Source: Branchiostoma floridae
Lineage: Eukaryota > Chordata > Leptocardii > Amphioxiformes > Branchiostomatidae
Direction of reading: 5' to 3'
Assembly: GCF_000003815.2 (NCBI RefSeq)
Contig: NC_049986.1
Coordinates: forward strand, 15,145,811-15,209,810
Length of the DNA: 64,000 nt
Positions 26,558 to 62,029 of the stretch are shown in pieces (position 1 is the first letter of the stretch; each line of letters begins with the position of its first letter). Made by a program: the position numbers and the translations under genes. Below the pieces are notes generated by a model that worked only from the letters and a program-made list of their open reading frames with translations, did not search any database and was not told where the DNA came from.

Positions 26558-27180
26558 TTATCCTTCATCAGATGTGTCTACTTCAGTTTCACTGTCATCA
26601 TCAGTGTCATCTTCAGAACTTTCTTCATCTGACTTGTTATCTTGGCTGGTCTGACCAGTGTCTTTGCCTTTAGCCCTTGTGGGAGTTGGCTTATCATCGC
26701 CCACTGTACCATCTATGTTATTATCATCCTCAGTATCATCATCTTCTTCAGAGCTTTCTTCATCTGACTTGTTGTCCTGGGTGATCTGACCAGTGTCTTT
26801 GCCTTTAGAGCTTTCCTTAACTGATGTGGGAGTTGGCTTATCATCGCCCACTGTATCATCTATGTCATTATCATCCTCAGTATCATCATCTTCTTCATCA
26901 GAGCTTTCTTCATCTGACTTCTTGTCCTGGCTGGTCTGACCAGTGTTTTCCTCTCTAGAGCTTTCCTTATCTGATGTTGGAGTTGGTTCATCATCGCCCA
27001 CTGTACCATCTAGGTTGTTATCTTCCTCCTCAGTATCATCATCATCTTCATCTTCATCATCAGAGCTTTCCTCAGAGGATGTGAAGATGAAGGGTCCACT
27101 CTTGGCTTCTCTTTGTACGCGTGGTTTCGTTCCACTGTCAGCCTTCTTCTTCAGGTCTGCCTTCAAGTAATCCAAGATTT
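26558..27180 (-). CDS. TTF1: TTF1 last exon with acidic repeat tail
   Basis: Starts with EILDYLKADLKKK, the counterpart of human PEIIDYLYETTL. It continues into about 165 residues of Asp/Glu/Ser-rich sequence in three to four units of about 45-50 residues (GTVGDDKPTPTS, KESS, DTGQ, QDNKSDEESSE, DDDTEDDN). The acidic tail is far longer than the short acidic end of human TTF1. The stop codon is at 26558-26560. Confidence 0.85.
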
Positions 27181-30100
27181 CTGAAAAAAAAAAGAAGAAA
27201 TTTTTCAAACTTTACTTTCAGACCCTATATTAGAGTGATAGCAAACATACCAACTGTGATGTGGTCTTATACATACATCAGGTCTGAAACATTTCAACAT
27301 CTTTTAAAAACCATACATGACATACAAAATGACTTATATCTGGTGGACGTACCAACTTATGTCATACCAGCTCAGAAAAGGCCAAACATAGTAATGTCCT
27401 CAAGTACCAGTGTTAGAGTTATCAAGCATCAACCAAAAATTGATGTGTTCGAAAATTATGTTTTTCACTAGAACTTTTATGAGGTGGAACACCAAGTACA
27501 GTATCATCTTTATCAAATAACATTAAACGCTGCTTACAGGTATATGTGCAACGGTCATGTGTGACAGGCCATTCAGTGTAATATAAGTTATAACCAGCTG
27601 CTACTGCACCTGGATCTACCTGCAAAGCTGGTGTGTTATACTGAAGGGCATCTATACCAGCTACATGTATTTAGATACAGATACATGTACAAATTGGTAA
27701 CCCCACTTCAGCAAAAATGTCTTCATGACTGGCATTGCTGGTCAAAAAGTAAAGACATCACATGACACTAAGACATGTATAAGAATGAAAGAGACTAGGA
27801 AAAAGGTACAGAAATCTCCCCCACCATCCATGTCCTTCCTATGCCAGTCTGGCACCTTGAGCTTCAGCCTGTGCCAGCGTCTCCTCAGGTGGCCCTGGTG
27901 CTTCACCCTAGGGATATACAAAAACAACTTCTACATGTACTCGACTGCAAGTTTACTTGTGACAGCAAACAACATTATCTTGATTGAATATGAATCTAAA
28001 GCACATTCATATAGAATCGGCACAATATTCTGTGGATTTTGACAAGGTGAAGATAACGTTACTGGATTCCGAACAGGACTACTTTCAAAGGGGAGTGAAA
28101 GAGACTACTAATATCAGAGCCCACCAACTTTCCCTCAACCATTAACTGAGAGAGGGACCAATACCAACTTCCAAGCACCTCTGGCCTTTTTGCTGATGTC
28201 ACACTTCCAGCCTAGTTGTGTGACATAGGCTTTGGACATTTCAACTTGATAAGGATCAGAGAACTGATCGAAAGCTTGTTGGTAAGCGCTTTATTTTGTG
28301 ATCCTGCATCATTAGCATCAACACCTAGCTGCAGTGCGAAATAGCAACAGTCAGTATTGTGGGGCACGCTATCATGTGACAGCCAAAGAAAAGCAGTAGG
28401 ACAGAAACTAAGTGAAAACAAGCTTAGAAGACGTCTTTGTCATAACTTTCCTAATCCGATTCCACTTGTTTAAAAAAGATGTAAAAAAGTAATTAGCTTG
28501 GAGCAATATAAGTTATATAACCCAAAGACAACTGACCAGCTCGTTAAAGAGATTCATTAGTCACGTATGTTCACAGTTAATAAAAGTTTTCATCGATCAG
28601 TGACTTATCAAAGNNNNNNNNNNNNNNNNNNNNNNNNNNNNNNNNNNNNNNNNNNNNNNNNNNNNNNNNNNNNNNNNNNNNNNNNNNNNNNNNNNNNNNN
28701 NNNNNNNNNNNNNACCAAAAACTCCTGATGCTAGGTTGATAACACTAGAATTTGTAACTTTCTGCAACCTTCTTGGTCATTTTGTACATCAAGTACAATT
28801 AACATATAGCCAGGCGCCATGTAGCCTGATTAAATCTCGCTTATAGCAGCCCGCCAAACATCCGCCGGCCCTCTAGAAGCTTGATGGAGAATGGCCATAA
28901 GCCAGCGGAACTGGGTTTTCCATATACGGGTAATGTATGTAATTGTCATGAGCCCACCAGAGCCTGGCTTTTGGTTGCTATGGACTGGGGTGGGTTGCTA
29001 TGTGGTGATTGACAGCATCACACCTCTTATCTGTCGTTGATCTCCTTGATCTGTGCCACTTGTACTGATGGTAAACCAACTATGTATACAAAGTTCTACT
29101 AAAATGATGTCTTTTTTTTAACAGTTGTCCCGTTACACCGAAGAAGGAATGTGAAAATTGTGAACCAACTGTTTTTCTGCAGTTGTCTGCCCATATAGAT
29201 CAAAGAAATGTACTTTAACGTTTAAGCCAAGCTTTTGTTGCTGGCCACATAAGATCTCACCACCAGGCAAAATAATAGTTCCAAGAAAGTCTGCGCTCCA
29301 AGATTCCTTCAAGTTTCTTGAAATCCCCACAAGATGTTGTTTTCCCGACACAAACATGCCTCTGCTCCCATGGGTCCTTCACACAGAGAACCACAGCCTG
29401 CACAGACAATGGGAGAGGCAACTATAGCCCGCCCACCGTCTGGGTGGTGGAGACATACTAATTTACTGGTTTCCACGGTAATGTGGGCTCGACCTAAATC
29501 CTGGCCTACCATTGGTGTTGAGACATTCCACAACAGTTCCCTCAGCTTATAGCTAGTGGAGCACAAACTCCGCGGGAGGGGCCAGTTACAGCCCTGGACA
29601 GTGGAGTTTGTGTTACACAGACTAGGCGCCATGGACCAATCAGAAGGCCCCGTTCCATGTTGGTTATGATGCCGTAACACATAGATTCCAGCCAGCCCGG
29701 CCTCCTTTTGATTGGCCAATGTCTGCATAATCCCTTAATTTCCTGTGTATTGCTCCTTCTGATTGGTCAGAATTTGCATCGACACCAGTTGGTCAACACC
29801 ACGCTTGAGGTGTGTCTCCTTAAACATTGAGCCATGGTCCCTTTGTTCTATCTGAGAGGATGCCCTTAATTGAAGCTAGGTACCAGTACTCATTTTCACC
29901 TGCCGTGAGTACAATGAGGAAATAAGTCCCTTTTGCCAGGGCACAACACTGGCCTGCTCGGGATTCAAACCCAGAACCTTCAGAATCCAAGTCAACAATC
30001 TTTACCACATGACAACCTCAGGTGTCAGAGAACCAAGGTAACTCAGTGTGGATTACTTACTACAGCCAATACTATGACTCACCAGTGGTTGTGACATTGT

Positions 30101-33100
30101 CTACCATTCCTCACATTGTTCATGAAGTCTGAGCACGCCTGCCAGCTGATGCCTGAGGTGACGTTGGTGACGTCTTGCTTCCCTGTAACTGCCTGCACTG
30201 CTTGGATCAGCAGTCTGCTCTCTTTGGCCGACCATCTTCCCATAGCTGCTGGGGGGATCAACAAGTAAAACATAGTCAGAACATGGACATTTTTTCTTCA
30301 GACAACATCAAGATATTTGACAATCAACAGGATTATGTAGTGAGGGGAGAAAAAGAAGCTATCTACATCAATGCCCAACCTGAGTCAAGTGAGGAAATAG
30401 ATGTCAAGTGCCTTTCTCAAGGGCACAACATCAGGACCTGCTGGAGATTCAAATCCAAAACCTGTAAATTCTAAGGTAACAAACCTACCCACAAGACCAC
30501 TTTGCAGTTTGCATGATAACAGTACATGCACAGGCTAAAAAATTTGGACTCATTCATCTAAGCCACTATGCTCACAGTTATAGTAACTTATACAAGCTGA
30601 CAGTACTCTACAAGGCCAACACCTCCAGAGTACTTGTCAAAGGATATACTAATCCTGTTGCCCACAGCTTACAAGGGGGTTGCATTTTGAAAATCTTGCA
30701 TGGGGAGTGAAACATTCTACAGTTACTACAGTTGGCTTCATTTTTTTATTGTATATTGTATATTTTTATTGTATACTGTATATATATATTGCTGGTAAGT
30801 CTCATCAACATTTAGCAATTACATTTCAGGTCCTGGGAGTTAGTTCATTTTATGCTTGAAGAGTAAACAATTGCATAGTGCCACATACATTTCCTTCTCG
30901 TATGGCGAAACCTTTGCTTAATGTTGTCCTCAAAGCGCCCCAGGGACTTGCTGATAAGTGCCCAGCGAGGCCCGTGCTGCTCATACAACTGCATGAGCTT
31001 CTTGTGCTCCTTTGGTGTCCATCTGCAAAAAGCATGCACATGTAAATTACTGCAAATGCAGAAATGTTCGCGGTGGTTTAATGTTTGCGGTTTTCGCAGC
31101 GGCCACGTTACCGCGAATTCAAAACCACCGCGAACAATTTTCCATAACAGTAAGAGATTACAGTGCATGTTGCTACCGCGAAATTGAAACCACTGCGAAA
31201 AGTCCATTTCCCCGCTACCGCAAAATTAAATCTCCGTGAACATTTACAGTACTTGATTTCAGTTCCTGATAATGAAATTAACCAAAGCTGTTAAAGCTCA
31301 ATTTGCCATGAGGTCTTCAACATAGTCAAGATCATAAAAACAATATTTCCACAAAAGATCATGAATCTTAGGAACAATTTCTAGTAGGCATTCCTTGAAC
31401 AGAAACGCTACCATGAACAAAAAGAAATGAAACTACTTGGTAGTCTTTCTCAGTAAAGATACTTATAGGCATTACTTGAACAAGAACGATATCATGCAAA
31501 AAAACAACTGCTATGTATTATTTCACAGTAAAATAAAGTACATGTAGATTGTCACTTACTTGCCGGTGACTTCTGCGTTACTGTACATATACCTGGCTCT
31601 GGTGTACACATTCCACAAGGGCCGGTCCAGACCTTGGGCTTCAGGGCATAAAAAACATATATCATTTTTGCATCAATGAAGGTTGGACATCCAGGTAATA
31701 ATATATGCCAGATAGTATATGCAATTACCCAAGTAACTGGATATGATTTGGGCATCTGAGTAACTGCTATTTGACATGTACTTCTTATGATTTGGACACA
31801 AGAAATAGTCCAACAACAAATATGTTCGTATTAACTCCAACAATGCTGTGGCGAGTTGAGCTATGTCACTATTTGGTAACGTCTTGAGCTTAGCTGAAGT
31901 CATCGAATTAACCAACCATTAGCCTGTGACAAAAAAAGGTAGGTTGCACATCTATATTTGTACCACAATGATCATCAAACATATTTCATTTAATACAAAA
32001 AGAGTCTACATTCTATGCTTATGAAGCCATGGAATGTTCCTTTTTTCTTGAGACCTAAAATTCTTACCTAGATGTCTGAACAGCCCTGCCTCATGGATCA
32101 GTTTCTTCAGTGCCTTCCTTTCCTCATACTGGTTTGGGTACAGAAGAGTCCTTGGTTCCTCCACACCATGTATCTACAAATCATCAACAACAGGGCAATC
32201 AGAGATGGCAGACTTCAGCCCCTTACCCTCCCTAATTTTGCAAGTAACAGTAAAACAGCAGCACTAATATGTGGCAAGACTGTGTGAATGTTTGGAATCA
32301 CTGAAATGCAGAGAAAAGTTGAAATGCAGGGAAAAGTTGAAATGCAGGGAAAAGTTAGGGACAATATTTAACTCCCTTGGGGTGTAGTAACTACTTGTTA
32401 CAGTGAATATGTCCTTGTACTTGAAGAGAGCAGTAGAGTTGTGCAAATATTTTTTATAAAAATGGACCAGAAGTACTTACCTCACAGAAGCTTTCCATGT
32501 TCTTCTTCAGAATTGCGATCTCTTGTCGACTGAAATGTCCAAATTTGATAGTCACTCCTGAAGAGAAATAAAACAGTGACAAGTGTAAATGACAAATGTA
32601 CTACTACTACATGTACTAGTGCTTTGACTGCAACAACCAATCTCAAATCTGAAGACAGTATGCACCATTACTGGGGCTAAAACCATCTGCCCAACATAAT
32701 GTCATTTTCAATCACGCAATCTTACAGAGAAACACCTTACTTGCTGAAATTTACTGATTTAGATACCNNNNNNNNNNNNNNNNNNNNNNNNNNNNNNNNN
32801 NNNNNNNNNNNNNNNNNNNNNNNNNNNNNNNNNNNNNNNNNNNNNNNNNNNNNNNNNNNNNNNNNNNTGGAAGGGTCATCTACAGACTCTGTTGTTGATC
32901 TTTTTTAGCCATATCTTCCCTTGTACCTCACTAACAACAGGTTCACCTTCTTGTTCTGTCCCTGCATCATTATCAGAACTATCATCCATACTGTTCTGTT
33001 GTTGTCTTTCTCCATCAGTGATTGCCTTTCCTTTGGCACTTTTTTGCTTTCCCTTCTTTGAAAGCTTATGTTTGTCCCCATGCTTCTTTATAGCCTGGTC

Positions 33101-35613
33101 CTGAGCTTGCTCCTTTGGGTTTATTTCCTTATCTACTTCCTCTGTAGGGTTTTGTTTCTCTGTGCTATCCTGCTGTTTTCCTGCATGTTCAATCTTTCTC
33201 CTCTTCTCAGCATGCTCCTTGTCTACTGCAGACTCTGTTTCTTCTGACACACCTCCCTTCTTGACTCTCTTTGTTCCCTTTCTTCTCTCTGTAATGTTGT
33301 CTTGTGCAGGTTTGCTGAGCACTTTACTGAAAGAGTCATCTACAGACTCTGTTATTGCATCTTCTTTAGCTGTATCTTCCTTGGTACTTTTACTAGACAT
33401 AGGATCACCATGTGTCTCTGCATTGTTCCCTGAACTATCATCTGCATTATTCTGTTGTTGTTTTTCTGCATCATTGATTGCCTTTCTTTTGTCACTTTTT
33501 TGCTTTCCCTTCTTTGAAAGCTGACTTTTCTTCTGAGGAGTGATAGTAACAGCAGTTTCATCATGTGATTGGTGCTCAAACGTAGTGTCTTTTCTTCTCC
33601 TTTCTACACCAGTACCTCCTTCTTTACCCACCACCCTGTCAAGTTGGGCTGTGCACTGGGAGTCCTGATCAGACCCAGACTGGAATGCCTTGTACCTGAA
33701 CTTGATGGTTTGTTCTGCCCCCATCCAAACAAATCAAACACCTCAGACACTGTCTGTGACTCCTGGCCTGCATCCTCTATGCACCAGACTGGCAGCTTTT
33801 TTGTAGTAGACTTTGGCTTGTTCTTAGAGCCAGCTTTACTTGCCTCATTGTGCTCTATTGCATGTCTCCTTGGAAGAGGCAGGGGGCTGTCCACTGGTGG
33901 GTCAACGTCGGATTCAGGAACCTCAGATTCTGACTGTGAAGTGTATGCAGATTCTGACCTCTTGTCCTTTGATTTCTTTTTCTTCTTTTTGCTGTCTGTG
34001 TCTGTATTTGAAGCATTTTGGCTTTCAGAAGACACATTACCATTCAGTGTTGTATCTTGTGAGCATGGCACTACTTTCTCCCCATTTACCTCTGAGTCAT
34101 TTGTCTTCTTTTTGTGCTTTTTCTTAGATTTCTCAGGTTTAGATAATTCTTGTGATGGAGGAATGATATCACTGTCTTCAGCTTCTGACACTTGCATTTC
34201 CAAAGTGCTTGACTCTGTATCCTTGTTCTTCTTTTTCTTCTTCTTCTTTTTGTGTCTTTTTTCTCCATCCCCTTCAGCATTATCATCTTCAGTCTGGATT
34301 CTTGAAACACTGGACTGACCATCTGAAGTGTCTTCAACATCTCTATCCTTTTTCTTCTTCTTCTTCTTGTGTTTTTTCTCTCTGCTCTCTTCATCATTGT
34401 CTTCTCCAGGCTGGATGGTGGCCTTGCCTTCCAAAGCATTTGATTCTTGATCATTTTCCTTCTTTTTCTTCTTTTTGTGTCTTTTTTCATCACTTTCTTT
34501 AATATTATCATCTGCAGACTGGATTGTTGAGTCACTTGTGGCCTGGTATTCCAGAGCATCAGATTCTAAATCTTTGTCCTTTTCCCTCTTTTTCTTCTTC
34601 TTCTTCTGTCTTTTTTCATCACTGTCTTTGGCAGTATCATCTGCAGACTGGATAGTTGAAACATTTGTGGTCTGGTTTTCCAAAGTATTCGATTCTACAT
34701 CTTTATCCTTTTCTTTCTTTTTCTTCTTCTTCTTGCGTCTTTTCTCATTGCCACTTTCACTATCCTCTTGTGCAGACTGGACAGTTGAAGCACTTGTAGT
34801 TGTACTTGTGTCTGTCTCTACACCTGACGTATCATCCGACATACTACCTTTCTCTTGACGTTTCTTCTTCCTTTTACCTGACCTGCTCACCAGACCACTA
34901 CAGCATTTTACAGGCTCTAACGGCTTCTTGAAGATATCCTCTTGCACCAACAGACCATCAGCATCAAGCCGTATAGGAGGCTGACTGTCTTTATCACTCT
35001 CCTGGCTGCTTGAAATCCAAGGGAACACGCCACTTGCTGACGACCTTTTTGCAGGGCTTTTCTGTGGACTACAAGTAAGTTCAGCATTTCTCTCTTCTTC
35101 TGTTGTGTCATTTTTCTTTTCTAGGCCACTCAGAGGAAAGTAGTCAATCTGAGAGAGGGAAGTGTTCCCGTGGTCTGTACCTGTGCTGCTCTGACTTGAG
35201 GTTCTCTCCCTTCTGTACTGTCTTCTGAGGAGAACGCTAGACTTTGTAGGGGACATTGGCAAATTGTTGGCTACACCTCTTTTGTTGCTGTTACCTGTAA
35301 TGTCTGAACTTCCATTGACAACATTACCATATTTGCTCTGCTTTGAAGCTGTTGATGTCTCGTTGTCTTTGTTTTTCTTCTCCTTTATCCTTCTATCACC
35401 ATCAGAATCTGTGTTGGATATTTCTGCAGAGGATTTTGAACCCAATTTTTTCATCTGCTTCTTCTTGTAGATCCTGCTCTTAGTAACGATGATGTCATGG
35501 CTGTCTCGGGTGTACCTCCCATCTGCACTGCCCATGTCCGAGACGTCTGCCAGGCTTCCGTGGCTGTCCAGTCTTTTCCTCTTCTTACTTGGAGATGTCT
35601 GTGTGGCATCCAT
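26558..35613 (-). CDS. TTF1: Transcription termination factor 1 (RNA polymerase I)
   Basis: Minus-strand exons: 33628-35613, 32927-33532, 32481-32557, 32068-32173, 31560-31638, 30889-31022, 30083-30245, 27825-27907, 26558-27180. TTF1 is a nucleolar Myb-type protein. It binds terminator sites downstream of rDNA, stops RNA polymerase I and remodels rDNA chromatin. Recognition rests on collinear motifs shared with the vertebrate protein: GVTIKFGHFSRQE, GVEEPRTLLYPNQYEERK, RPLWNVYTRARYMYSNAEV, GKWTPKEHKKLMQLYEQHGP (Myb 1), GRWSAKESRLLIQAVQAV with ISWQACSDFM (Myb 2), and RRRWHRLKLKVPDWHRKDM joined to EILDYLKADLKKK. The N-terminal half is Lys-rich as in mammals. At least one exon before 32557 is not found and probably lies at the assembly gap 32768-32867. 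The ~55 residues that follow Myb 2 in human are also missing, possibly in the gap 28614-28713. Confidence 0.9.
28614..28713. other. Assembly gap (100 Ns)
   Basis: A run of exactly 100 N, the customary placeholder for a gap of unknown size. It lies in the TTF1 intron where an exon encoding the segment after Myb 2 is expected. Confidence 0.99.
29634..29768. repeat. Perfect 14-base inverted repeat with CCAAT boxes
   Basis: GACCAATCAGAAGG (29634-29647) is inverted exactly at 29755-29768. Two further CCAAT/ATTGG motifs, overlapping in TTGATTGGCCAAT, lie between them. It may be the ends of a small element or a buried regulatory module inside the TTF1 intron. Confidence 0.5.
29832..30030 (-). mobile_element. 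tRNA-derived SINE
   Basis: Read on the minus strand it begins TGGTAAAGATTGTTGACTTGG (an A-box-like start). It continues to GGTTTGAATCCC, a close match to the B box GGTTCGANNCC. The non-tRNA body AGTGTTGTGCCCTGGCAAAA follows. Related copies are at 30350-30500 and 43600-43745. Confidence 0.65.
30083..31638 (-). CDS. TTF1: TTF1 Myb-domain exons (three exons)
   Basis: Exon 31560-31638 encodes RPLWNVYTRARYMYSNAEV. Exon 30889-31022 encodes Myb repeat 1, with tryptophans at the starts of helices 1 and 2 (KWTPKEHKK, RWALISKSLGR), and ends HTRRK. Exon 30083-30245 encodes Myb repeat 2 (GRWSAKES, ISWQACSDF) and ends QCHNHW. Phases 1, 2, 1 and 2 all agree. The acceptor of the last exon is a NAGNAG pair (CCCAGCAG), giving or omitting one residue. 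Confidence 0.85.
30350..30500 (-). mobile_element. tRNA-derived SINE, second copy
   Basis: Shares with the copy at 29832 the order GAGGAAATA, GGGCACAACA, GAGATTCAAATCC and a final ACCCACAAGACCAC-like segment. It is more diverged and lies in the TTF1 intron between the two Myb exons. Confidence 0.55.
31047..31251. mobile_element. Short palindromic MITE-like element
   Basis: The ends TTACTGCAAATGCAGAAATG and (inverted) TACTGTAAATGTTCACGG are related, and the interior is built of repeated ACCGCGAAATT/CGCGGTGGTTT segments in both orientations. About 205 bases with no coding content. It sits directly beside the acceptor of the TTF1 Myb-1 exon. Confidence 0.6.
32768..32867. other. Assembly gap (100 Ns)
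   Basis: Exactly 100 N between TTF1 exons 32481-32557 and 32927-33532. The flanking phases (0 on one side, 1 on the other) require at least one further exon here. Confidence 0.99.
32927..33532 (-). CDS. TTF1: TTF1 second coding exon, repeated KKGKQKS blocks
   Basis: 202 codons with acceptor CACTCCTCAG and donor GTACAAG. Two ~250-base units share LSKKGKQKS, KRKAI or KGKAI, QQQN, DDSS and a downstream acidic part. The exon joins the first in phase 0 only if the 95-base intron 33533-33627 is removed. Otherwise the two frames are out of register. A one-base assembly error would be the alternative explanation. Confidence 0.65.
33628..35613 (-). CDS. TTF1: TTF1 first coding exon, Lys-rich repeats
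   Basis: 662 codons from MDATQTSPSKKRKRLDSHG. The middle holds at least seven diverged blocks of a poly-Lys run (KKKKKKREKDKD type) followed by an acidic/Ser segment with IQSADD or IQTEDD. The blocks recur every ~33-40 residues. The N-terminal half of vertebrate TTF1 has similar KSKKKKKK blocks and serves regulation and nucleolar targeting. The exon ends at TGGTGG before GTAAAG at 33627. Confidence 0.85.
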
Positions 35614-37002
35614 GCCTTATGCACACACAGTAAAACACAACAATTATGATGTACCACAGGCTTTGTGGATCTTTGTCAGAGGTGTGGCTTACTTGACTTT
35701 GTTCTTCCTTGACTGGTGTATTCTTGGGGGCATCATAAGTGTTGTGGCTTCCCTACATAAAAATAAAAGAGAAGCATATCAGTGGACATGAAACTTATTG
35801 AAAGATATTTGATGATATAACTTTCATCTAACATTCCCATGATGACAGCGAAGAAACGTCGAACCGTCCAGGCACTGACTGACTGCCGGCAAACCGGGAC
35901 AGGGCTTGTGGTAAAACATGCTGATTGCTGATACATTTCTTAGCTATATCTGGACTTCTCCACACGGTTAGATTTGATCGCTAGCGAGTGCAGTTGCAAC
36001 AAAATTACCTTCCAGCTTCTAAAAAGCAAAAGGTGTTGCTTATTCATATATTACACCAAGATTTGTATATAAAAGTGGACTTCTTTTGCCAGAAACATGC
36101 TACGATTTGGGGGACTTGAAATCGCTGCTGTTCCCGCACCTTGTTCCCGCCAAGGACGTTATATCGTCCTTGTTCCCGCCAAGGCGAGAACTCATGGGTT
36201 CAAGCCTTGCCCCCCTCCCCCAGCTCGGCTTGGTGTACCGAAACCCACGCCAGCACACACCCTACTGTGCATTGCTCGTTCCTCAGTCTGTATCAACAAA
36301 ATTACTGCAGACAAGAACCTCATATCTTCCCGGTTCTCTTTTGTATGTTTTTGTTTCACTGAAGCTTACCTATGAGTAAGTTACAGCTGAAGTTGTGAAG
36401 TTTTACAGGTCCGGACTCGGCAAGCCATGGCAGGCAGACATGTTGGGTTCAACTAATAGCTAAATGGGGTACAATCATTCCTAACGAAATTTATAAAATA
36501 GAAATATCACACACAACTAGCACCATGATGATCGGACATAGATATATTTAGTTTGAAAAAATATATTAAATTTTGTTAAATCTTCAGATTAACGTTATTA
36601 TTCTATGTTTAGGCTACATACCATTTCAATTTTACCTGTACTTTAAGTGGCATCGTCTACTTTCACTTTCCTTCGGGTAAAGAAGAGACCACTTGGAAAA
36701 GAGGGCGGCGGAACAATACCTATTCTCATATAACCTATTTGTTTAACAATACCATCCTTAACGTTTTAATAAAAGTGTTCTATACAAATTTAAAACCTTA
36801 GCCTTATGTATATAACGATATAACGTTACCTTATCCAGTACGTCTAGCAAAAATTATTTTACCGAGAGAAAAAAAATGCCCTATCCAGTAGTCGTCTTGG
36901 CCTAAGAAAAGATGGCGGTAAATCGATCATAGAATTGCTGTTCGTTTGAAGAAAAGTTGTGTTTTTGTCTATATTTGAGTGTTACTACACTTCTACCTCG
37001 CC
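35614..37002. promoter_or_regulatory. Divergent TTF1/FBXL6 promoter region
   Basis: 1.39 kb separates the two divergent start codons. A 17-base direct repeat CCTTGTTCCCGCCAAGG occurs at 36139-36155 and 36168-36184, with another TTCCCGC just before it (36131). TTCCCGCC matches the E2F core. AAGATGGCGG at 36909-36918 matches the YY1 consensus and lies just upstream of the FBXL6 ATG. TTF1 may have a noncoding 5' exon here. No TATA box is evident. Confidence 0.55.
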
Positions 37003-40000: not shown

Positions 40001-43000
40001 TCTCATGTATTCACCATCAAATAGATGTATCTTGTACCTCGTATGATACGGTATACAAATGTACATTCTTCATATATGTGTGACTGAAAGTTTTCAAACA
40101 AATCTTTGATACTTTTTTGATTTACCGAACATGTACATGTTTCTGCTGTAGTCTCACATGGTGACTCCCACCTGTCTGAAGCATGTTCTCGAGAAGACAG
40201 GCCCCAGACTTAAGGAACTCAACCTCTCCAGTAACAAACTGGTGGGAGCTCCCGGCATCTTCAAGTGCATCGCTGTAAGTAGTGCCATATATAGTATACA
40301 TTCAAGGTTTAGAAAAATGGATTTAGAATTAGAAATATAGATTTAAGTTTTGAATACTGGTCAAAAGAAGTGAACATCAGGCCAGATAATGGCGTGCTGG
40401 ATGACAGAATGCCTGTTTACGGGGTGCCTGATTCTGGCGTACCGATTACAGCGTGCACTAAGAAGTTGTGTCTAAGAATGTCTAAGAAGTTTGAGTGATT
40501 TTTCTTTAGAAGTCTCTAAATATTTCATGGAAGTATGAGGTCTACAAACTCTTGTTGTTATTGTTTTTGTTGTTACTGTTATTGTTTGTTATTATGTTGT
40601 TATTTCCCAGAGATGTCCGCAGCTGGAAGTGTTGGACATGAGTAACTGCCATTTCTCCTCGACCCCCCTGCTGCCGATCGAGGCGCTGCAGACAGGCTGC
40701 CCCTGCCTCAGGGTCCTCAGACTGGCTGGGTCAGTCATGGCGGCTGGCAATGCAACAAGTGCCATCCAGGTAAGGTGGACAATCAGAGTGTGACATGAGA
40801 TCTTTTTGAAACAGTTATGTAGTCTAATTATATTAGAAGACAAGTCTACTCCATGTAGATAATTATCGCATAAGGTCTAGCTACCTGAAGAGTGCTTTAG
40901 GTCTCTGTATATCACAAGAACAGTGCAGCTTAATGCTTATAGGTTCTATATTATGTACAGGATGGTTCCCCTGGCTTCCCTGAGCTCCGTGAAGTCAGCC
41001 TGGCTAGTAACACACTCCTCACATCAACCACTGTTAATGACAACTTCATCTGTAGGTAAGGGACCCGTTCCAAATCGGAAACGTTTGTCTGAATACAATT
41101 GGAGGAACACTGCGTGTATGAATGTAACACTTCCATCAATATCTGTCATCATATGAAAGTTTTAGCGATTTACTTCAATCAATTTGTGAAACACTATATG
41201 TGTATTGACTGTAGCACTTATCCATCCATATCTTGTTGTAAGTTTTGATTGTTTACCTTAGTTTTAACCATTTACTTCCCTCAATTTGAGAAACACTATG
41301 GGTATGATTGGCTGTAGCACTCATCCATCTATGTCATAAATTTTGACCATTTACCTTTCCTTCGACTTTTCCCAGGTTGTTGAAGACCTCATACAAGCTG
41401 AAGCTGCTTGACCTGAGGGGATGTTCAAACGTCAACACGGCGGGACTGCAGAGTCTGCCTGTCACCTGTCTGGAGCAGTTCTTCATCTCAAACACCAGCA
41501 ATATATGCTACAGCTATGAAGGGATAGAGACCATCATCCAAAAGGTGGGAGATGCTTTGGTCTTGGTGGATCGTAATGCTCACTTTCAAACTACCAGAGA
41601 AGTAAAGTTAGATTTCAGTTTCTACATTTTGAAGGGCACCATGGTTCTGATATGACCATCATCCAAAAGGTGCTTTGCTCTTGGTGACTGCCACTTTGTT
41701 CTTGATCTGCTACGCTAATAAAGTTTTTTGATGATTTGGTGGACGTCATGCTCACTTTCAAACTACCAGAGAAGTGAAGTTAGATTTTGTCTTCAGATTT
41801 CAGGTTGTTCATTTTTAAGGGCACCATGGTTCTGATATGGAGCCTCAACATTTCATGATGACAAAAAAACAATGTTTCTTATGCTTCCACCTTTGTCAGA
41901 AAATCTGACCCACGCATTTCTTACATGTGACCCTACAAAAATGCTATACCTATAGTTTTATATCGACAACTACAGCTTAAATCTTGGCTATTCTATCTAC
42001 CAATACTGATGAGCTTTCATTGTAATCTACTTGTTTCTCCAGTGCCAGCACAGCCTGGTGGAGGTGGACCTGTCCTGGAATGTCTATGTCGACACAAACT
42101 TGGACAGAACTCTGAAGAAGCTGTCCTCCTCCAGAGCTACCTCCCAACTCAAGGTGCTGAACCTGAGTGGAACATGTGTGACTGCAGACATGGTCAGGTC
42201 AGGGGTTACACACATCTTATTTATACATCAGACACATGTTCTCTGGTCTGCTTTCTGTATAAAAGTCTTTTTTGTTATCGTTGTTTTGTTCTTTTTGGGT
42301 TCAGCTGATATGCAGCATAAGTACCTAAAGGTTATTGCAAATCAAAGATCAAGTACTATAGAGTATATTCTTGAATCCTCCAAAGCATAAAAACCCACCC
42401 CTGCCTTGTATTTAAACTCTCAGGGGACAGTGGGATATGCACATAAATCACACTACAGGTAAAGTGAGTCAAATCTTGGCAGTCATTCAGCACAACCTGA
42501 GCCACTGTCTGTCGCAGGTCCAGTCAACCTGCTACAAGACGTTTGCAGGCAACAGTACCAAGAGTACAGTGCTACAGTGTGGGGCCCAGACTTAGAGGGA
42601 GTCCAACATTGGACTGCCTGCCAAGAGGGAGTCCAACATTGGACTGCCTGCCAAGAGGGAGTCCAACATTGGACTGCCTGCCAAGAGGGAGTCCAACATT
42701 GGACTGCCTGCCAAGAGGGAGTCCAACATTGGACTGCCTGCCAAGAGGGAGTCCAACATTGGACTGCCTGCCAAGAGGGAGTCCAACATTGGACTGCCTG
42801 CCAAGAGGGAGTCCAACATTGGACTGCCTGCCAAGAGGGAGTCCAACATTGGACTGCCTGCCAAGAGGGAGTCCAACATTGGACTGCCTGTCAAATGCCT
42901 GTCTATAATTGTTGATGCCATTATAGACAGGCATTTGGAAACTTTTGGGCCATTGTACATTAGGCATGTGCTTGATCTTATCAACAAGAATAGAAGCATT

Positions 43001-43354: not shown

Positions 43355-44625
43355 TGTAACCTTTGACATGAGATTCTTAACTCAATTATTCTTGGTAAAA
43401 GGGAAGAAATTCGTTTTTTTTTGGGGGGGGGGCATAACTGGTAAACCACTTTTAGGCACAACATGGCCAGTTTTTTACATAACGTACAAGCTGTGTAAGA
43501 CCCATCTGTAAGGTTTGCTCTACATGTATTCACACCAGGATGGACCCAACTCTTTACCATCAGTGTGGTGGGACATTTAACATGCTTGAGGTTATCCTCA
43601 AACACTGGACTTTCATCCCATCAAAGAGGATGTCAGGTGAGAAACTAGGTGTCAATTGCCTTTTCTGAGGGCACAACCTGATGGATTGCTAGGGATTCAA
43701 ACTTAAGATTCTAAGTCAAGAACCCTAAGTACATGACAACTTTATGTACAGTTCAGTTCTGTTATGTACATCTTATATTTCCACCAAAATGATTAACTTT
43801 CCTGGCTGTAAAAGTTACAGTACTTGATAAAATGATAACTCATGTGGCCACTCACGTAGTTTGTAGTTTCACAATTTTAGTCCACTGTATTCTGCTGCTG
43901 TAGTGGTCAGAACATCTACAGCTATAGCTAGTGTCACAATACCTCCATGTAACTTGTAAGTACCACATGTCTCATATAGGTAATGCTACCTCAAGCATGA
44001 AATGTTCATTATCAGTAGTCTATGCTTCGAAGTTCTACATCATCAATTTGGATTTTATCTGTAAATTTTGAAAAGGTTTTTTTATAATGTTAGATAGCAT
44101 GGGATTAATGTTACATACTGAAAAGTGTCCTCAGTACATGTTATACATGTTAGTCTGTCGAGGTATCATGGTGCAATGGTCAAAGGTAAAGTTAATGGTA
44201 ACAGGTCTTAAGTAAGTGAATGAATAACTGATGGATATGCATTGTACATTTCTCTGTATAGTGACAGTAATATGAAATTTGATGGTGATATGTTCCAGGT
44301 AATTTTGGCGGTTGGAGCTAAGGATTTTATTATAAACATGTAAACTGTAACAGATGCCATTCCGTGACTCATTATTACACCTGTATTTCTATACTGTGAG
44401 CCTGTAATGTTATGGCAAGTTTTGCATGTATGTTAAGGAACAAGAAGAGTAACTGTTAAGGTTAAACGAAACGATGTAACTATCTCAAGACAAGAGTGAC
44501 ATGCGGATTTTTTTTCCAATTTTGATTTGATTACTGATCAGTATTATTGATGATATTTCATTCTAATAAGAAACACCTTTCGCTGGCGCTATTCTCTTCC
44601 GATTCTTTCGAAATATTGATGGAAA
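43355..44625. other. FBXL6 3' UTR and spacer to CFAP77
   Basis: Noncoding. It includes a diverged SINE copy (about 43600-43745). The CFAP77 promoter should lie in the final few hundred bases or within the annotated first exon. Confidence 0.45.
43600..43745 (-). mobile_element. tRNA-derived SINE, third copy
   Basis: Contains GAGAAACTAGGTGTCAATTG, GGGCACAAC, GGGATTCAAAC and a final AAGTACATGACAAC, in the same order as the copies at 29832 and 30350. It has lost part of the B box. Confidence 0.5.
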
Positions 44626-47600
44626 ATGTCCAAAACGAAGAAAAAACGTCATGTTAAATCGCATCGTTTTGTGTCACTTCCGGGTTTGCTTTCTCCACCC
44701 CTCTCTTGCGTCATCATGGAACAGTCCTTGTCACCACGACGCCAAATGGTGCCTTGTGATTGGTCAATCCTATCAGCTGACCCAGCTGTAGCAACAGTCG
44801 CTACGGAAACAGACCACGCCCCTTCCTGCTACACAACAGTGAAAAACATTGGAGTAGCGTGCGAGTTGATAAGCAAGGCGATCGCCAGCTCAATTAGACG
44901 ATTTTCTGCGGCTCCTGAACGTTCAAACCGCGAGGAACAGGTGCACAAGATGGCACAGGACCGGATAGGACTTGTCAGGGACTCGATGAACGAAAACCCG
45001 CTTTTGGCTAAGGTAAGAAGACGTTTTTTGTGACATTTCTGCAACCATGTGGTGGTCAGACCGAAGAGATTCAAGTGCTCTTGAATTAAATCAGAGCGTC
45101 TCGCCTTTTCCCTGCCTCATTGATAAAATCCCGACTTTTCTACACTCCTTTCACTGATTTTCATCATTTCGGAAATCTGCGTCATTTTATGATGTTACGT
45201 ACGTACTGATGTTATTCTTTTGTTGATATTCAATTATTTCGGTAGATAACGTCAGAATAAAGGGGGTGGGGGGTAAGTTGAATGGTCTTTTTTCGACCAA
45301 TGTTTGCCATTCAAATTAATTTCACCTCTTATCTTTCCTTTTCAAAAGTGCTGTTTAGTGGAAACGCTAACTCAGTAGTTTTCTTTTACCATGAAAACTA
45401 AGATTGGGTAACATTAATGATTACAAGGGTTTAGATATCGAAGTTTCCATTTGTTTTGCTGTATGTTTGTTATTGTATCATAGCCACCAAGCCAAGAAAG
45501 TTTTCCCCAAGGCGTCAACAACAACATATCACATTGCATGATTTTCTTTAGAAGTAAAACAAGTAATTGCAAGTCTGGTGCATACATTTCAATCTTCAGG
45601 ACTGTGATACTTGTAAAAAGACTAAATTTTCCCTTAAAGTTAAAACTCCAGATTTCACCTTCAAACAACCCTGCTGTGGCTTTATTACAAATGGGAGCAG
45701 CACTTATCTAATTTGTAAGGTATCTTAATTTCCCTCCATAAAAAATTAAATTGGCGTTATATGAATTTGGGCACCAAAAACTGAAAATATTCTGAATTCA
45801 AAACTCTCCATTCAAATTGACAATGGCAAGTACGATGTGATTTTCAACATATTCATACCATTTCTCACATTGCTAAACAACACAAAAGCAAGCCACGTAA
45901 AGTGCATATTTCAAGACGTTTTCACAATACAACATTCAAGTCACATTCATATGCTGTGAGTATAGCTATGCAGCGTACTTTCCACTTTTAGATTCCACTT
46001 ATGATGAGGAAAAATCACCAAAGCAGCATCTTTGTTTGAATTTTGCTATCAATCCAGTTCTATGATATTCTTCTTTAGATTTGGCTGTGGGTCAAACGCC
46101 AGTTGACACAATGTTTATGCCAGTATGATTCTTCAAATGTAACGTTAAATGTATTGTAGAGTGGTTGCCTCATGTAGATTTTTTTTGCAATAGAAACATA
46201 ATATTAGTAAAGCTTGAACCAAGCCTGTCCCATAGGTCTGCTGTCAGAATTTTAGGTATCGAGGTAATGTTACACCAAAACCTTTCACAGTCACTCAGGT
46301 GCAAGGGGTAGCTGCCTCTGAAACAGTTTTCCTGAAAACATATCCGACTTCTATCCTAACATGGCTGGAGGGACGTGCGTTGCGGGGCATTGGATACAAA
46401 TACCGTCTTTGTTTGGTTGAAGAATAAACCTTCGGCCTGTTTTGTTTGGTGCTATTGACATCTAACATCTGACTCCAAAACTCCCAAACACGTCCACTCA
46501 ACCTCAATGGCAGTGTTATGGTCCTCTTTGGGAATTAAGTTCCCAGTTTTGCAGGTACCCCCTACCTGGATGGGCTTGAGGTGTGTTTTTCAGGGTGGGG
46601 TCACCTGTGCAACACCTGTTCTGTATAAGGTGTTGCTATAGTATCTTATTTTCTCCAGTAACTATTTAAATTTGATATTGTAGTTATCCTATATTAGGTC
46701 ATCACTTATAGATTGTTTATTCTATTACCAAAGCTAACAATATTGAACAGCGAAAGTGACAAAACAGGTACAGATTACTTTAACTGGTTGTCACCCTGGT
46801 CATATAACATTGCTGTTATTACATCAGCATACCTTGTAAATGAGAAAAGCTTTCCATTGCAAATGTATTAGTGTGGTAACAAAGTTTGTTGGTAACTTGC
46901 CCAGTCTTTGAGTGGGTATTCGGCAAAGTGTGAAAATAACATGTTTATCCAAATTTGATTTTTTTCTTTTCAATTTCTGGATGACGGCATTATATGCCAT
47001 TCCCACTCAAATCTATGACTTTCCAGCACAACTGATTAGTCAAAATCTTGTAGAGTGCTCTACTTTAAAAATGCACACTATGGTTCTTCTTAGAATTGTG
47101 TATTTAGCCATTGATGGTGAAATTGACTATCATCTCTGTCATCAACCAGCAAAAAGCAATGAGGATCAACTTCATCTTCTGAATTTTTAAAAGCTGTCAT
47201 GTTTCCAGTCAAATCATATCCATCATAGATTTCTCCTTTGTTATGAAACAAAACCTTTTTATGGTGCAAAATGACTGGTCACGCACTGAATTATTGACGA
47301 ACACCCCATAAAAGAGTGCCTTACTTTCCATAGCAACCTAATTCTGCTCATTTACCTCCATTTCCTGTTAGGTTTTGGTTGAATTGAAGCAGTTTTTATG
47401 TATGTATGGGGCACAAACATGTCAAACAGCCGGTGTAAAATAAAAGGTGTTAACTGGGTGTTAAGATTCCAATTTACTACAGCCACCTTTGTGCTTTTTC
47501 TTTTTGAAACCCTTTCCCTTTTTGAGATCAAACCTTTTTTTGCATGATTAGGTTTCCGAGAGCCAGGCTGAAGTATTGTTAAGTGCATTGGCATGTTACT

Positions 47601-50600
47601 GGCTGCCAGATCCAGACAAAATGTCCCCTTGCCAACCATTGTTAGCCATAGTGGCGTGGAAGACAGGAATGCATCTTGGGATATTGCCATGGTAACCGAC
47701 CAGGTGTGCTACAACACTAAAATGGTGAAGAATATTTACCTGGAAATAATCTTACTATGTTGTGATTGTGAATATCACCAAATCAGGGAAAAGGGGCCGA
47801 TAGTTTAGGTTGAAGTGGCTTGAAGTGGTTGAGTTGTGCACTCGCCATTCTTTCCACAGTTAAAGGATGGGTGCAGAACAAAAGTGTCTGGGTTTTCTGA
47901 AAAAGTCTGCTGGTAAATGATTTCTAAAAAAATCTATAATGAAGAACCTATAATGATTATGCCAGTGTTTCACAAGTGGTGTGTTTCAAGTGCTCTTTAG
48001 AGAAAAATGATCATACCAATTGTTTTCTACTGGGTGTTGTTCTTTTTCTTTAAACCAACCAGTACCTACTGTTCAACACTGTAACCAACACAAAGATATT
48101 GTTAAGACTACCTCACCAGGGAGAATCCTATAAACAAGCCAGGCTAATCAATGATATGTCATTTTCGTGACAACTATTTTAGAAACAATAGAACAGGTGC
48201 ATGACTATGGTCAGGACCAATACTCTGTTTATCCTAGACATAGAAGACAACTATTCATAGCTTCATTATTCTGTCACAACCAATACTGATAACAGTTCTA
48301 GAATTGGATTGTTGCATGCACAAATGGGATCCATCACAAAACCTAATAGCTAGAAAAAAAGAAAACTATGAAGTGTTTTGTTCTTCCCTAACTATAATGA
48401 TATTGGCATATGTCCATGTAAGTTAACATCAATTTTGAGCATTTTTTTTCCAAAATGAAATCAGAGATCTTTATGATAGGCAATCATAGAAAAACATTGG
48501 AATCATCTGCATTATTTTATCACATAAAATCAGACTGATAATCTGCACTTCAAAAACATAGTTTTTTAGCCACAGTGACATTTTTTGATAATTTTCTAAT
48601 GCCATTTCCTTTCTCCTACCACATATTTATTTGACCAGATGGTAAGATGACACATTATTTTCCGTCCATCCCTCAGTCCCAGCTTGGCAGACCACTGAAG
48701 AGAGGGTTCAGCTTGCCCCCTGATGACTTCACATATGGCAGACCAAACACAGGGAAGGATGGAGGCACTGCAGAAGGTAACAACATGTCCACAGGTCTTC
48801 ATGTACAGTAGTTTTGTACTTGTAACATCATTCCTACTTTCAATCACTGAAGGTCCGTGGCATCTACAACTACAGTTGAAATTGCCTTGCAATTCCACAA
48901 CTGTCCCCTAGGTGGCATGTCAGAACAGTCAGTCCATTTTTCTTGCGTGTTGTTGCTGCAGTTTGATTTCCTACAACTAGATGGCGCCTTTGTCACACAG
49001 GACGGTTCCCTCCAGTTTTGCCTTCAGGCAAAAATATCATGTCCTTTGGTCATAAAAAAATTCTTATGTCCAACTTTTCTATAACTTGTCTAGAAATTGG
49101 TGTTAAACTTGGATTACAAGTGCTTTGGACAAAAAAATTGAAATGATGTTGTAGCTAAATTTTCCTTCTTAACTCAAACAGAATGTTTCCTGATAAGAAA
49201 ATGAATTGCTCCCCCCACTATTCACCTGTATAGTAGATTGTTTTATTGCCCACTTCTCAGTTATAAACTACAAAGAAAAGAGTTTGCATCAAAGACTCCC
49301 CTGAGACTGCTTAAGATGGTACAGCCCTACTTCACAGGTGGGTGTGAATGGGAGGCACCTGTTTCAGAACCAGTTTTTGTACTGTGCTTTTGTCAAGCAA
49401 GAAAAGATAGATAGCCCAAATTTAAAGCAAAACAAAGAATGACATATTATTTTGTGTATGACGAAAATAAGAATTTCTCATCAAAAACAAAACACCATTA
49501 AATCTCCTGAATGGCATTGACAGAAAATCTTGAAATATCAGTGGCTTATTTGGGAGGCTTTTTCATTCCTACAGAAATTATCACAAAGTCTTCAAACAAG
49601 TTTCATTGATTCTTTGTTTTTTTTACAAATAGAAGGGAAAGAAAGAAACCAAATAGTCGGAAGTTGGTCATCAAAGAAACTTGAAGGTTTAATTCAAAGT
49701 GTAAAGCACAATGGCAAGCTGCAAAATTGTGTTTTTGATCATGGGACAGTCTTATTCCACATGATGTTTGCAGTATTTGAAATCCATAATTTTGCCATGT
49801 CATTGCACAAGGAGATTAGACTTTAATGGTTTTCTACCATTACGTAAGAATTGAGAAATGACATCACCCTTAGCTCATTCTTTTGGCATGTCTTCATTTG
49901 TACAATTACTGCCCATTCTACAATACCAGCACCGGCTATTACACCACTTAGCGGGCGGGACCAGGAGTATTTACCAAAATTGCTCTCAAGTCGTCTCTCC
50001 CTAATTAAAGACCACGTTAAGTAAATTAAAAGGTTCTTAAACGGCAAGTGTCTCATCTGACACAAAGGTTGCCCGTTTGCGGGTGAGAAAAATTGTTGTG
50101 ATATGAGATCACCTCAGGTGGGTTGTTAGAGAATGAGTGGTAAGTGGTGGGGAGGGCTCTGTGTCTCCGGCAATGTGCGTCTCTCTACCTGACTTCAGGA
50201 AATTACACACTGTCGTACTTTTATAGAAGGGAATTACAGGTTTTGTTTGGTTCAGTTCTTCCGTTTTCATGAATCATACACAACCTGTCTTTATTACGAA
50301 TACTGTTCAACAACAACCAAAAGACGAAAGACGTTAGTTTACAGGCTAAGTGGACAAATAACATTAATATTGACAACAACATTTTAGATCTATATACTGT
50401 GAAAGTTTCTAGACTCCTACAATATCATGAGAAAAAGATCTAGTACATACACATGACTTCAGTCACTTGGTATTTCAAATTGCCTCAGTTTATCTATTTA
50501 GCAATGCATTCTTGTCACGACTTTCAAAACATTTGAGAATCAGCAAAGAAAAATGTTGCGGCCTAACATTTTTTTCTGTGCATATGAGCATCCACAAAAC

Positions 50601-53600
50601 GGAGGAAGCTATTTACTGGACGGTTAACTCTTCAAGGAAGTGTTGCATGGAAAAGTGGCATGCTTGCCATTGCAAGTTGTATGTCTCCCATTCCCCAACA
50701 AAACTGAGTTGCATTTGAAAGGCAACGATGCTTGCAATTGCAAGTTACAACCCTGCCAACGAAACAAAACACAAGCTATGTTTGGCAGGCAACGGTATTT
50801 GCTGCTTACTCCGGAGTATGGTCTGTTTTCTTTGGTAAATTTCTGCCATTCTAAAATTGGTAAATACTGACGATGCTCAGAGAGTCAATGATATTGTTAT
50901 CCCTCTCTCGACCATAAAGCGTTGAAAAGTTCTGGCATTTGTTTACCGCATACGCCACGTTGCCGGGATGTCGCAGGTTTTGTGTCAGCCATGGCAGGTT
51001 AGGCTTCTAATATGACGCGGACGCGGCTAATTTGAAAAGAATCGGTTTCCTGACTCGTCTTTTCACAAGGCTGAAGTTGGGTATATTGTGTAGCAAGTTG
51101 AGCGTAACCCGCTGTCAAAAGGCGTTTGCACAAAGCAGAAAAGGAACTTGGATAAGCATCCTGTTTGATGTTCTGCACAGTTTCATTCCTGTGTTTTTCT
51201 GTCCGCCCATGTTGAAGTCTTTGACAGGCTTACGTAGAAAAACAGTATAGCCACAACATCCTGTTGAGTAAAACAGTAAAAAGTTAAGAACTGTGCTGCT
51301 TTCAAGCGTAAAATTGAACGTCAAACTTCACGCTTCCTTTATGTACTAATTGTGTTTGTCTTCACTGGAGCATAAAAACTCACAGCGTAAACTTGACCAT
51401 GGATGGTTTCCTACTTAAAGTCTCCAGGACAAAACTATGCCAGCTGGTTCAACTGAGCATCCTCGCTTTCTGTGGTGCTCAGCTATTCTGTTGCCAACCC
51501 TGCTGACGGTTTTAAGATGTTTATGTTCAAAAAGTGGCCAGCAGTATTGTTTGTACATATTTTGGTACAATTTCTTTAAGCATCAAAATTGCAGCATATT
51601 ATACAAGAACAAAATTGGACAATTTGTGAAAGGAAATCCAGTCGGGCTCTCAAGTTAGCCATGATTTGTCAGTCTCCCCACCAGCTAACCCATTCTTACA
51701 CCTCAAAGTGCCGCAAAGCCAAAAAAGTTTGTTCGAAAGATCCAGCTGTATTATGTTGGAGACTTTTTTTCTAGCCGATTATATGTAGTGTTCCCTGTAA
51801 TGACATCCTGCAAGTCAGTGCAAATCGATTCCCCTTTCGAGGACTTGATCCTCAAATCTTCCGCACAATTTGTGGCGTGTACTTATCTGAGACATTGAAT
51901 CCTGTTTACACTTGTAATATCTGAGCCTTTTCAGAGCCTAACTCCCGGTAATTGCCCTTTATAGCATCCAGGTCTTCTCGTACATACCACATGGCTTGCA
52001 TCACTTTGTTCCCATTGTTGCCTAAGAGCTTAAATTTTCTTTGAAATNNNNNNNNNNNNNNNNNNNNNNNNNNNNNNNNNNNNNNNNNNNNNNNNNNNNN
52101 NNNNNNNNNNNNNNNNNNNNNNNNNNNNNNNNNNNNNNNNNNNNNNNNNNNNNNNNNNNNNNNNNCTTGATCGTACCTTCCGCTGCGTAGACCTACAAAG
52201 TGTTGAACACTCAAGCTGGATTTTCTCAACAATAGGCAGGGCTTACCGACTTGGACAATGGAAACTCAATACCCCATTGACACTCAATGGATAGAATAGG
52301 TTAGGATCTTTCTGTGTAGCAGTTTTCAGCTCAATACACTTTGCTAAAGATGTTCTGTGCCCAACTATTGTACAACAGGAAATGTGTCAGACTACTTAGG
52401 TTGTGGTCATGTCATGATTACAATACAGATTTTCAAAGAGCCTCAAACCCTGAAGAAAAGTACATTGTGAAAGGGGGAAGAAAAGCACTTGTTGTCAGTG
52501 CAAAATGTTTGTTGTCACTTGTCAGTATATGTTAAATAGGTTTAACAACTGTTACAGTACAAGATAGCACAATGGGCCCTCAATGACTTCAGAAATTAAG
52601 ACACTCACTCACTATCCGTTGTTTGTCAAGAAATTGGATTAAAAGGTTAAATTTCTCAGAGGTCAATAGTCTGCATGTTTTTGTTTTTTTTTGGCATCAT
52701 CTGTGCATCACTTTTACACCACATTTTTCCCAAACACTTCTTCCTAAAGCTACTTGCTCCCAATTCAAAATACATTCATCTATGAACAGAATATTTCATT
52801 TTGTTATTCCTAAATTTAGATACTTTGATGACATTGTTAAACTTGTTTGTTTAACCTGTTCTTCCTTTTCCTGTTCTTCCGTTCCAATGTGGATCCATCT
52901 GGACGAAATCCACAGAAGAGTTAACTTTAAAATTCTCTATCACTGATTGACTTTTTGCTCCAGCATGACAATTGTTGTACATGTACATGTACATGCACTA
53001 GGTAATCTAACATGACATTTTGTTTTTGCAGCCATGGGCAACTGGAACTCAGCGCTACCGTCCATGACTTCCAAACCTGGCGAGCAGAAACGGGAGCGGG
53101 ATTTCATCGGCCTGAACCGTGCGGCCATCAAGGCTGGCCTGGTCACGTCCGGCGAACACTACCACTTCCGCGCCAACCACGACATCCGGCGGAAAATGTC
53201 GCCAAGCGAGAACAAAATCCGCACCAGACGCATTCCTCCTGATATGACCTTCGGCATCTCCACAAGGTGATTTGGATTTTAAGATTGTTAGGATCAACTG
53301 TTGACATTACTGAAAGTAACTTTTAAGTTCATTTTTTTCTGTATCGTGTGTTTTGTATCAGCTTAAGTGTCACATTTAGCAGAGGTTATCAAAGTCAGGA
53401 GCAACATATGAACAAAATTCACTTGAAGGTTGATACAAGACAAATGCACATTGTCAATTAAAACCAAGATTGTACTATTGCTCACTTGATGAAAGTGTTT
53501 TGGGGTTTTGAATTTTCCCCCCTCTGTATGCTTACCCATAGTACATGATTACGTAAAGGACTCAGACAGAGTTTTCCCTGGTTCCTCCCCAGACCATCCA

Positions 53601-54232
53601 CCCCAGTGTTTGACCTGCTAGAGCACAAGTACCAGGACCGCTGGCTGCAGCAGCGAAGGCTATCGGAACTGGCCAACCGTGAGAAACAACAGAAAAAGGT
53701 ACACCCTACCACATTGATTCACTTATTACCAAGAACCAACAAAAAAGCAAATGAAAAAATGCCTCTTTCACTCTTTTAAGGAAATGTGACAAAGACCAAC
53801 ATTTCATAGCTTTCATTCCTTTCATCCATTCCTTCAATTATTCATTTGCTTACCATATTAATTTATTCATCTATCCATGATGATCCATCCATCCATTTAG
53901 TCAAAAAGTGTGAATCTGGCTTGATAACATCTTAATACCAACATACTGAGGGTGTTATGTTTTTGAGTAACACACATGTAATTAGAATAAAACACAGAGC
54001 ATTGCAAGAATTCCACCATCTATGACACTATGCCAGGGTAAAACGTCCCAAGTAATGTAGACATTGCTTTTACTATTATGGCAGTCAATGAAGCTGTACC
54101 TAAAACTCTCTTCTTGTTGCCCCTTTACAGATCCTAAATGGCAACATCTACGAAACGAGGGCTTCCTTGTTGAGAAAGTATAGCCCTGTCGTGGAGCCCC
54201 CGCCACTCTGGCACATGCCTCGCTTTGAGAGG
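44626..54232 (+). CDS. CFAP77: Cilia- and flagella-associated protein 77 (3' exon outside)
   Basis: Exons 44626-45012, 48677-48776, 53032-53266, 53593-53698, 54131-54232. Phases 0, 1, 0, 0 agree and give 310 codons so far. CFAP77 is a microtubule-associated axonemal protein of motile cilia (known role of the family). Collinear motifs with the human protein: VRDSMNENPLL, LGRPLKRGFSLPPDDFTYG, GLNRAAIKAGLVT, PPDMTFGIST, RPSTPVFDLLEHKYQDRWLQ, GNIYETRASLLRKY and LWHMPRFER. The final ~40-residue exon (HLDTFPTE-like in human) was not found before 64000. The ATG at 44950, within AAGATGGC, is an alternative start in frame. The upstream part of exon 1 is not obviously conserved. Confidence 0.9.
44758..44810. 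promoter_or_regulatory. CCAAT box and X-box-like motif in CFAP77 exon 1
   Basis: GATTGGTCAATC (44758-44769) is a CCAAT box on the minus strand. GTCGCTACGGAAAC (44797-44810) resembles the RFX X-box of ciliary genes (GTNRCC, spacer, RGYAAC) with two mismatches, and GTAGCAAC lies just before it. Promoter-like motifs at this position suggest transcription may start near 44830 and translation at 44950. Confidence 0.35.
45013..48676 (+). other. CFAP77 intron 1
   Basis: 3.66 kb with no coding exon, RNA gene or recognised repeat. Short open frames lack splice signals. Confidence 0.5.
49900..50250. promoter_or_regulatory. Candidate conserved noncoding element in CFAP77 intron 2
   Basis: Unlike the AT-rich surroundings, this block is compositionally complex and repeat-free. 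It holds homeodomain-type cores (CCTAATTAAAG, GTAAATTAAAAGG), a TTAAACGG motif and a CAGGTG E-box. Assigned by texture only; no alignment was possible. Confidence 0.3.
52048..52165. other. Assembly gap (118 Ns)
   Basis: A run of 118 N within a CFAP77 intron. The length differs from the other two gaps, so it may be an estimated size. Confidence 0.99.
52977..52996. repeat. Short (GTACAT)n run
   Basis: About three and a half copies of a self-complementary hexamer beside the acceptor of CFAP77 exon 3. Confidence 0.7.
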
Positions 54233-54739
54233 GTAAGTTGTTGATGATTGATGAATGAATAATAAATAATAACTTTATTGCAAGTTCATGCCAAAGGCTA
54301 ATTTATTTTTGCTGATTAACAGAACTCTTGTCTATAGTGATACTGTGTTGGTTTACTGATCAATTATCACTTCACAAATGCTGTAAAAAAACAGATTGAA
54401 TGGTAGTTAAGAGATAATAGACTAATCATATAGCTTTCACGAAAGTTGGGACCTCTCCATCTGAACTCTACGTAGGCTTCAAAGTAGCCATAAAATGATA
54501 AAGATAACAAGCATAATCCTGAATACCACAAACTTTAGTACACTTTTGCAAATGCAATAAACTATATTTGTGACCATTTGTATTACTGGTAACGTTAAGT
54601 TGAACACGGAAATATTTGAGCACTAGTCTTACGAAACATTATGATTCAGCAGATGAATGTTTTAATGGTGTGTGTACCACGTGTGCCTTTCTGATAATAT
54701 AGCTCATAGACATTCCTTTTTTTATGAAGTTGACCTGTC

Positions 54740-59910: not shown

Positions 59911-59989
59911 GAAACAAGCCACCAGGCACTTGAAAGCCGAACTGGGGGATAAAGAAGGCGACTAGATTGATGGTTTAATCAGCTGACGG

Positions 59990-61826: not shown

Positions 61827-62029
61827 AGTATAATTTACAGCGTATTTGATAATGTACATATATTTTGTGGTTAGAAAATACCATTTAATGGGCATTAAGT
61901 TTTTTTATGGAATGCTTGATGTTTCTGTCATTTCCATGGTTTCAATATTACTGTAGAGTTAACCAAAGCTGAGTGGAGCAGGGAAACATTTTAGTGACCT
62001 ACAGTCCGGGATGTTGTCCTCAGACGGCT

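Follow-up and report, generated by a model that had tools for sequence, protein, structure and literature searches.

We analysed a window of 64,000 nucleotides from the lancelet Branchiostoma floridae (bases 15145811-15209810 of the 25.6-Mb contig C8; the genome comprises 431 contigs totalling 513.4 Mb), together with 200 kb of sequence to its right; coordinates above 64000 continue the numbering of the window. The results showed five genes on this one contig in the 5' to 3' order TTF1(-), FBXL6(+), CFAP77(+), BARHL(+) and putative DDX31(-) (Table 1), with two of the five gene names (FBXL6 and DDX31) leaning on presumed resemblance to the human sequences. The Pfam and PDB matches and the located exon pieces confirmed the original prediction that TTF1 lies on the minus strand and CFAP77 on the plus strand, with FBXL6 between them.

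Table 1. Genes and other features in the window and its flanks, in window numbering unless marked L029.
Feature	Position	Strand	Basis or content
TTF1	35613..26558 (approximate)	-	Pfam Myb matches, PDB Reb1 alignment, located exon pieces
TTF1 pieces	first exon from 35613; 32555-32481, 32155-32009, 31024-30893, 30240-30082, 27181-26558	-	
FBXL6	37003 to at least 42198	+	LRR_6, F-box-like, PDB F-box/LRR proteins, exon pieces
30-base repeat array	42594-42894		
CFAP77	44950-57734	+	six coding exons: 44950-45012, 48677-48776, 53032-53266, 53593-53698, 54131-54232, 57606-57734
AGTTT repeats	61556-61837		
BARHL	75550-83371 (right of window); homeodomain stretch 80709-80870	+	homeobox search, PDB homeodomain match, start and last exon located
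Putative DDX31 (DEAD-box helicase)	132187-110959 (right of window)	-	open frames; name from presumed resemblance to human DDX31
Tandem duplication	4469-11730 and 16533-24711		
Peroxidase/lyase frame	L029:6000-9350 (4000 to 650 bases left of window)	+	1117-aa open frame
Endonuclease-like frame	L029:1804-2547	+	

The first exon of TTF1 is large and rich in lysine and serine, and the C-terminal exon is acidic. A Pfam Myb match at about 31024-30905 was above the cut-off (37.4 vs 24.4 bits), and another, at about 30240-30075, was below it (17.1 vs 22.9 bits). The joined stretch of 177 aa gave 17 PDB matches, among which c-Myb had the lowest E-value, covering a shorter part. Reb1 (5eyb), which is related to TTF1, was the only match aligned nearly end to end (residues 6-173 of 177, at a modest E of 2.4e-4). 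Myb-type DNA-binding repeats are thus present in the arrangement of Reb1 and TTF1.

The open frames of FBXL6 carried LRR_6 above the Pfam cut-off and an F-box-like domain slightly under it (23.2 vs 24.3 bits), and eight PDB matches to the region included F-box/LRR proteins, FBXL6 itself being absent from them; the name is presumptive, being taken from resemblance to the human gene. The 3' end of the gene may lie further right than the last exon piece located. FBXL6 and TTF1 stand head to head, with 1389 bp from start codon to start codon. In human, TTF1 and CFAP77 are, as we take it, neighbours in divergent orientation, which would favor a shared divergent promoter that holds the two genes together. 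In the lancelet, however, FBXL6 intervenes, so that TTF1 faces FBXL6 and the start of CFAP77 is 9.3 kb away from TTF1. We therefore rejected the shared promoter, which is very improbable and largely refuted for the lancelet genome by the presence of FBXL6 between the two genes. The position of FBXL6 also indicates that the TTF1-CFAP77 pair is not tightly locked; the gene was either gained in the lancelet or lost from the vertebrate copy. Directly after the FBXL6 exons, we observed ten near-perfect (99%) copies of a 30-base unit.

The CFAP77 exons could be spliced with GT/AG borders to give a protein of 244 aa. PF14825 was above the Pfam cut-off in two CFAP77 frames, and the protein matched the PDB chain 8snb_4N, which we take to be sea urchin CFAP77, at E 2.2e-91 over residues 15-244 of 244. 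Four further CFAP77 chains, presumably mammalian, matched at E 5e-63 to 1.5e-60. These results showed a full-length match to the CFAP77 of ciliary doublets, and a genome-wide search gave one match, at this locus. The presence and strand of CFAP77 had been predicted correctly, and its end had been placed at 54232; this position closes exon 5, the last exon having been missed, and the true end is 57734. About 56 copies of AGTTT were observed between CFAP77 and BARHL.

A BarH-class gene had been predicted within about 200 kb to the right of the window, and we found BARHL there on the plus strand, with its ATG 11.55 kb beyond the window end. The whole-genome homeobox search, in which 150 of 246 candidates were scored and at least 135 matches were obtained, placed a homeobox at C8:15226525-15226680 on the plus strand. 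None of the at least 135 homeobox places listed was within the window, and a Pfam search in six frames of 54380-64000 found no homeobox above threshold and one sub-threshold match to another family. Close to the start of BARHL are two short motifs of the type that we take to be FIL. The homeodomain scored 105 bits against BarH-like 2 and 67 bits against BarH-like 1 (chain 2dmt, which we take to be BARX1), so that BARHL is its nearest family, ahead of BARX and others. A genome-wide comparison gave 26 places (E<=1e-8), of which this locus alone was identical to its 52 residues and the runner-up reached 65%, indicating that the genome holds a single BARHL. A published study also gives one barhl locus for amphioxus (PMC3235082). 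BARHL is a developmental regulator, the kind of gene that is the target of a genomic regulatory block.

DDX31 and GTF3C4 had also been proposed to lie to the right. We take the DEAD-box helicase found there on the minus strand as DDX31, and this part of the prediction appears to stand; the GTF3C4 family gave one match, on contig C16. The best PDB relatives of the putative DDX31 were HAS1 and DDX18, with no DDX31 in the best 60 of 86 rows, and a C-terminal piece with its motif appears to agree with human DDX31. The gap that separates BARHL from DDX31 (about 83.4-111 kb) showed no obvious gene. Ten of the 44 frames of at least 90 aa in 83.3-126 kb were scanned with Pfam, giving one sub-threshold match, so a small gene could escape notice between the two.

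The rest of the window and its left flank were also surveyed. No RNA genes were found, and the minus-strand frames of 1-4950, 12000-17000 and 17000-26500 contained no Pfam families; the scan did not take in minus-strand 4950-12000, which nearly repeats 17000-24700, nor the plus strand of 1-36900. The repeated stretch belongs to a tandem duplication whose copies are mostly 89-95% alike, with one short piece at 78%. Both copies have minus-strand open frames and a 42-base repeat array each, and the second copy gave no Pfam match. An open frame of 1117 aa in the left flank combines two domains, a peroxidase of the DyP type (PF20628, E 6e-19) and a glycyl radical enzyme domain resembling pyruvate formate-lyase (PF02901, E 1e-96). 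This frame, on an apparent animal chromosome, stops at a probable splice donor, after which a further frame resembles the continuation of the enzyme. The single pattern tried did not find the glycyl-radical motif in it, and a literature search for a pyruvate-formate-lyase-like enzyme together with amphioxus found nothing. Another plus-strand frame, at L029:1804-2547, matched DNA/RNA non-specific endonuclease weakly, below the threshold, and resembles, by eye, a minus-strand frame in the left flank, some 23.4-23.9 kb from the window.

We take the order at human 9q34.13 to be TTF1(-), CFAP77(+), BARHL1(+), DDX31(-) and GTF3C4(+). The order and strands of lancelet TTF1, CFAP77, BARHL and DDX31 match this presumed arrangement, with FBXL6 as an extra gene. 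The chance of this order with these strands is about 1.5e-9 under random placement, given that all four genes are on contig C8, which is a weak null, since some old neighbourhoods are expected to persist passively. The figure indicates only that the block was inherited and does not address the reason for its retention.

Three further genes from 9q34, GTF3C4, TSC1 and SPACA9, served as controls (n = 3 only, their human neighbourhood being partly presumed), and all three were outside the block. TSC1, with eight exon matches, is on C8 at 1.10 Mb beyond the DDX31 end. SPACA9 is on the same contig, 1.57 Mb left of TTF1, with weak matches (E 1.7e-7 and 4.2e-5), and an extra match (E 3.0e-5) was found elsewhere on C8. 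TSC1 and SPACA9 are therefore still on the contig of the block, indicating that large-scale linkage is generally retained here. This is what passive retention would predict, in which the lancelet genome rearranges slowly and the neighbourhood stayed unbroken by luck, and the vertebrate literature matches, in which we found no tie of TTF1 to BARHL, also fit it. However, all three outer neighbours lie outside the block, whereas order and strand persisted among the genes next to BARHL, and the vertebrate evidence points to CFAP77 and DDX31 in particular; we consider passive retention unlikely.

In a mouse QTL study, Med27, Ntng2, Setx, Ttf1, Rapgef1, Ak8, Cfap77, Barhl1, Ddx31 and Gtf3c4 are listed as candidates in an interval of 1.8 Mb, which indicates linkage and not gene order (PMC10950258). 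For DDX31, a BARHL1/DDX31 super-enhancer has been described in human tumours, where medulloblastoma hijacks it (PMC4911170, PMC12209359); at the DDX31 locus, a genetic study points to BARHL1 as the candidate gene. For CFAP77, the promoter regions of Barhl1 and Cfap77 interact in mouse hair cells, where both are named hair-cell genes and both loci carry H3K4me1 and H3K4me3 (PMC12568336). The original prediction had held that TTF1 and CFAP77 share no role, and for CFAP77 this picture is incomplete, as the mouse gene is counted, alongside Barhl1, among hair-cell genes.

The naming of Cfap77 as a hair-cell gene makes shared control a real rival to the view of CFAP77 as a bystander. Under such co-regulation, the ciliary gene CFAP77 would itself be a target of BARHL enhancers in ciliated sensory cells, and the common control would hold the two genes together; the mouse promoter contacts and histone marks favor it. 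On the other hand, this support comes from one mouse organ, and co-regulation leaves DDX31 and TTF1 unexplained. We regard it as somewhat doubtful as a separate account; it overlaps with, and does not exclude, the explanation that we prefer, a BARHL regulatory block.

The lancelet block resembles the synteny and genomic regulatory block described for vertebrate barhl1, in that BARHL appears to be kept with unrelated neighbours (PMC3235082, citing Kikuta 2007; PMC2745767). According to the former, barhl1 synteny between human and zebrafish is highly conserved, possibly with regulation included; as a point against, constraint on the barhl1 locus of teleosts seems lower than on that of barhl2 (PMC3235082). 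Elsewhere, BARHL1/2 are listed among duplicated block target genes, and three conserved amphioxus elements have been proposed near human BARHL2; against these, their identity or length is given as too low for unaligned genome-wide searches of vertebrate genomes. Unlike the vertebrate barhl1 block, the lancelet one surrounds the only BARHL of an invertebrate chordate, contains FBXL6 and has GTF3C4 elsewhere. The medulloblastoma super-enhancer (PMC4911170, PMC12209359) lies in a similar arrangement, with putative DDX31 as the downstream neighbour of BARHL in the lancelet.

The literature matches listed included no report of the block in any invertebrate, and searches for TTF1 and CFAP77 with synteny, and for C9orf171 with BARHL1, found nothing; the catalogue of Irimia 2012 was outside the search. 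That catalogue reportedly covers conserved ancestral microsyntenic pairs of animals, which are similar in that unrelated genes adjoin in distantly related animals, in many cases next to a developmental regulator. This kind of neighbourhood is already known, and the lancelet block appears to be an older member of it.

Taken together, the stretch is probably one flank of an old regulatory neighbourhood around the single BARHL. A BARHL regulatory block that predates the vertebrates appears to account best for the retention of CFAP77 and DDX31. The account is weaker for TTF1 because FBXL6 separates it from CFAP77; at the block edge, TTF1 would either be within the BARHL domain or have been passively carried along. 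We infer BARHL regulation as the cause of retention, for which the vertebrate data lend support in the case of CFAP77 and DDX31. In the proposed mechanism, old enhancers for neuronal and sensory-cell expression of BARHL would sit within CFAP77 and DDX31 and also beyond them, and a break within either gene would cost BARHL part of its control. Since such breaks would sever BARHL from that control, selection would have kept CFAP77 and DDX31 beside it ever since lancelets and vertebrates shared an ancestor. More tentatively, the BARHL domain may have extended from TTF1 to DDX31 before the genome duplications of the vertebrates; CFAP77 and DDX31 would then already have contained BARHL enhancers, and CFAP77 and BARHL would have been under shared control in ciliated sensory cells.

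A vertebrate regulatory neighbourhood whose enhancers are hijacked in medulloblastoma would thus be traced to an animal with a single BARHL, and CFAP77 and DDX31 would be two genes in which ancestral BARHL enhancers could be sought directly.
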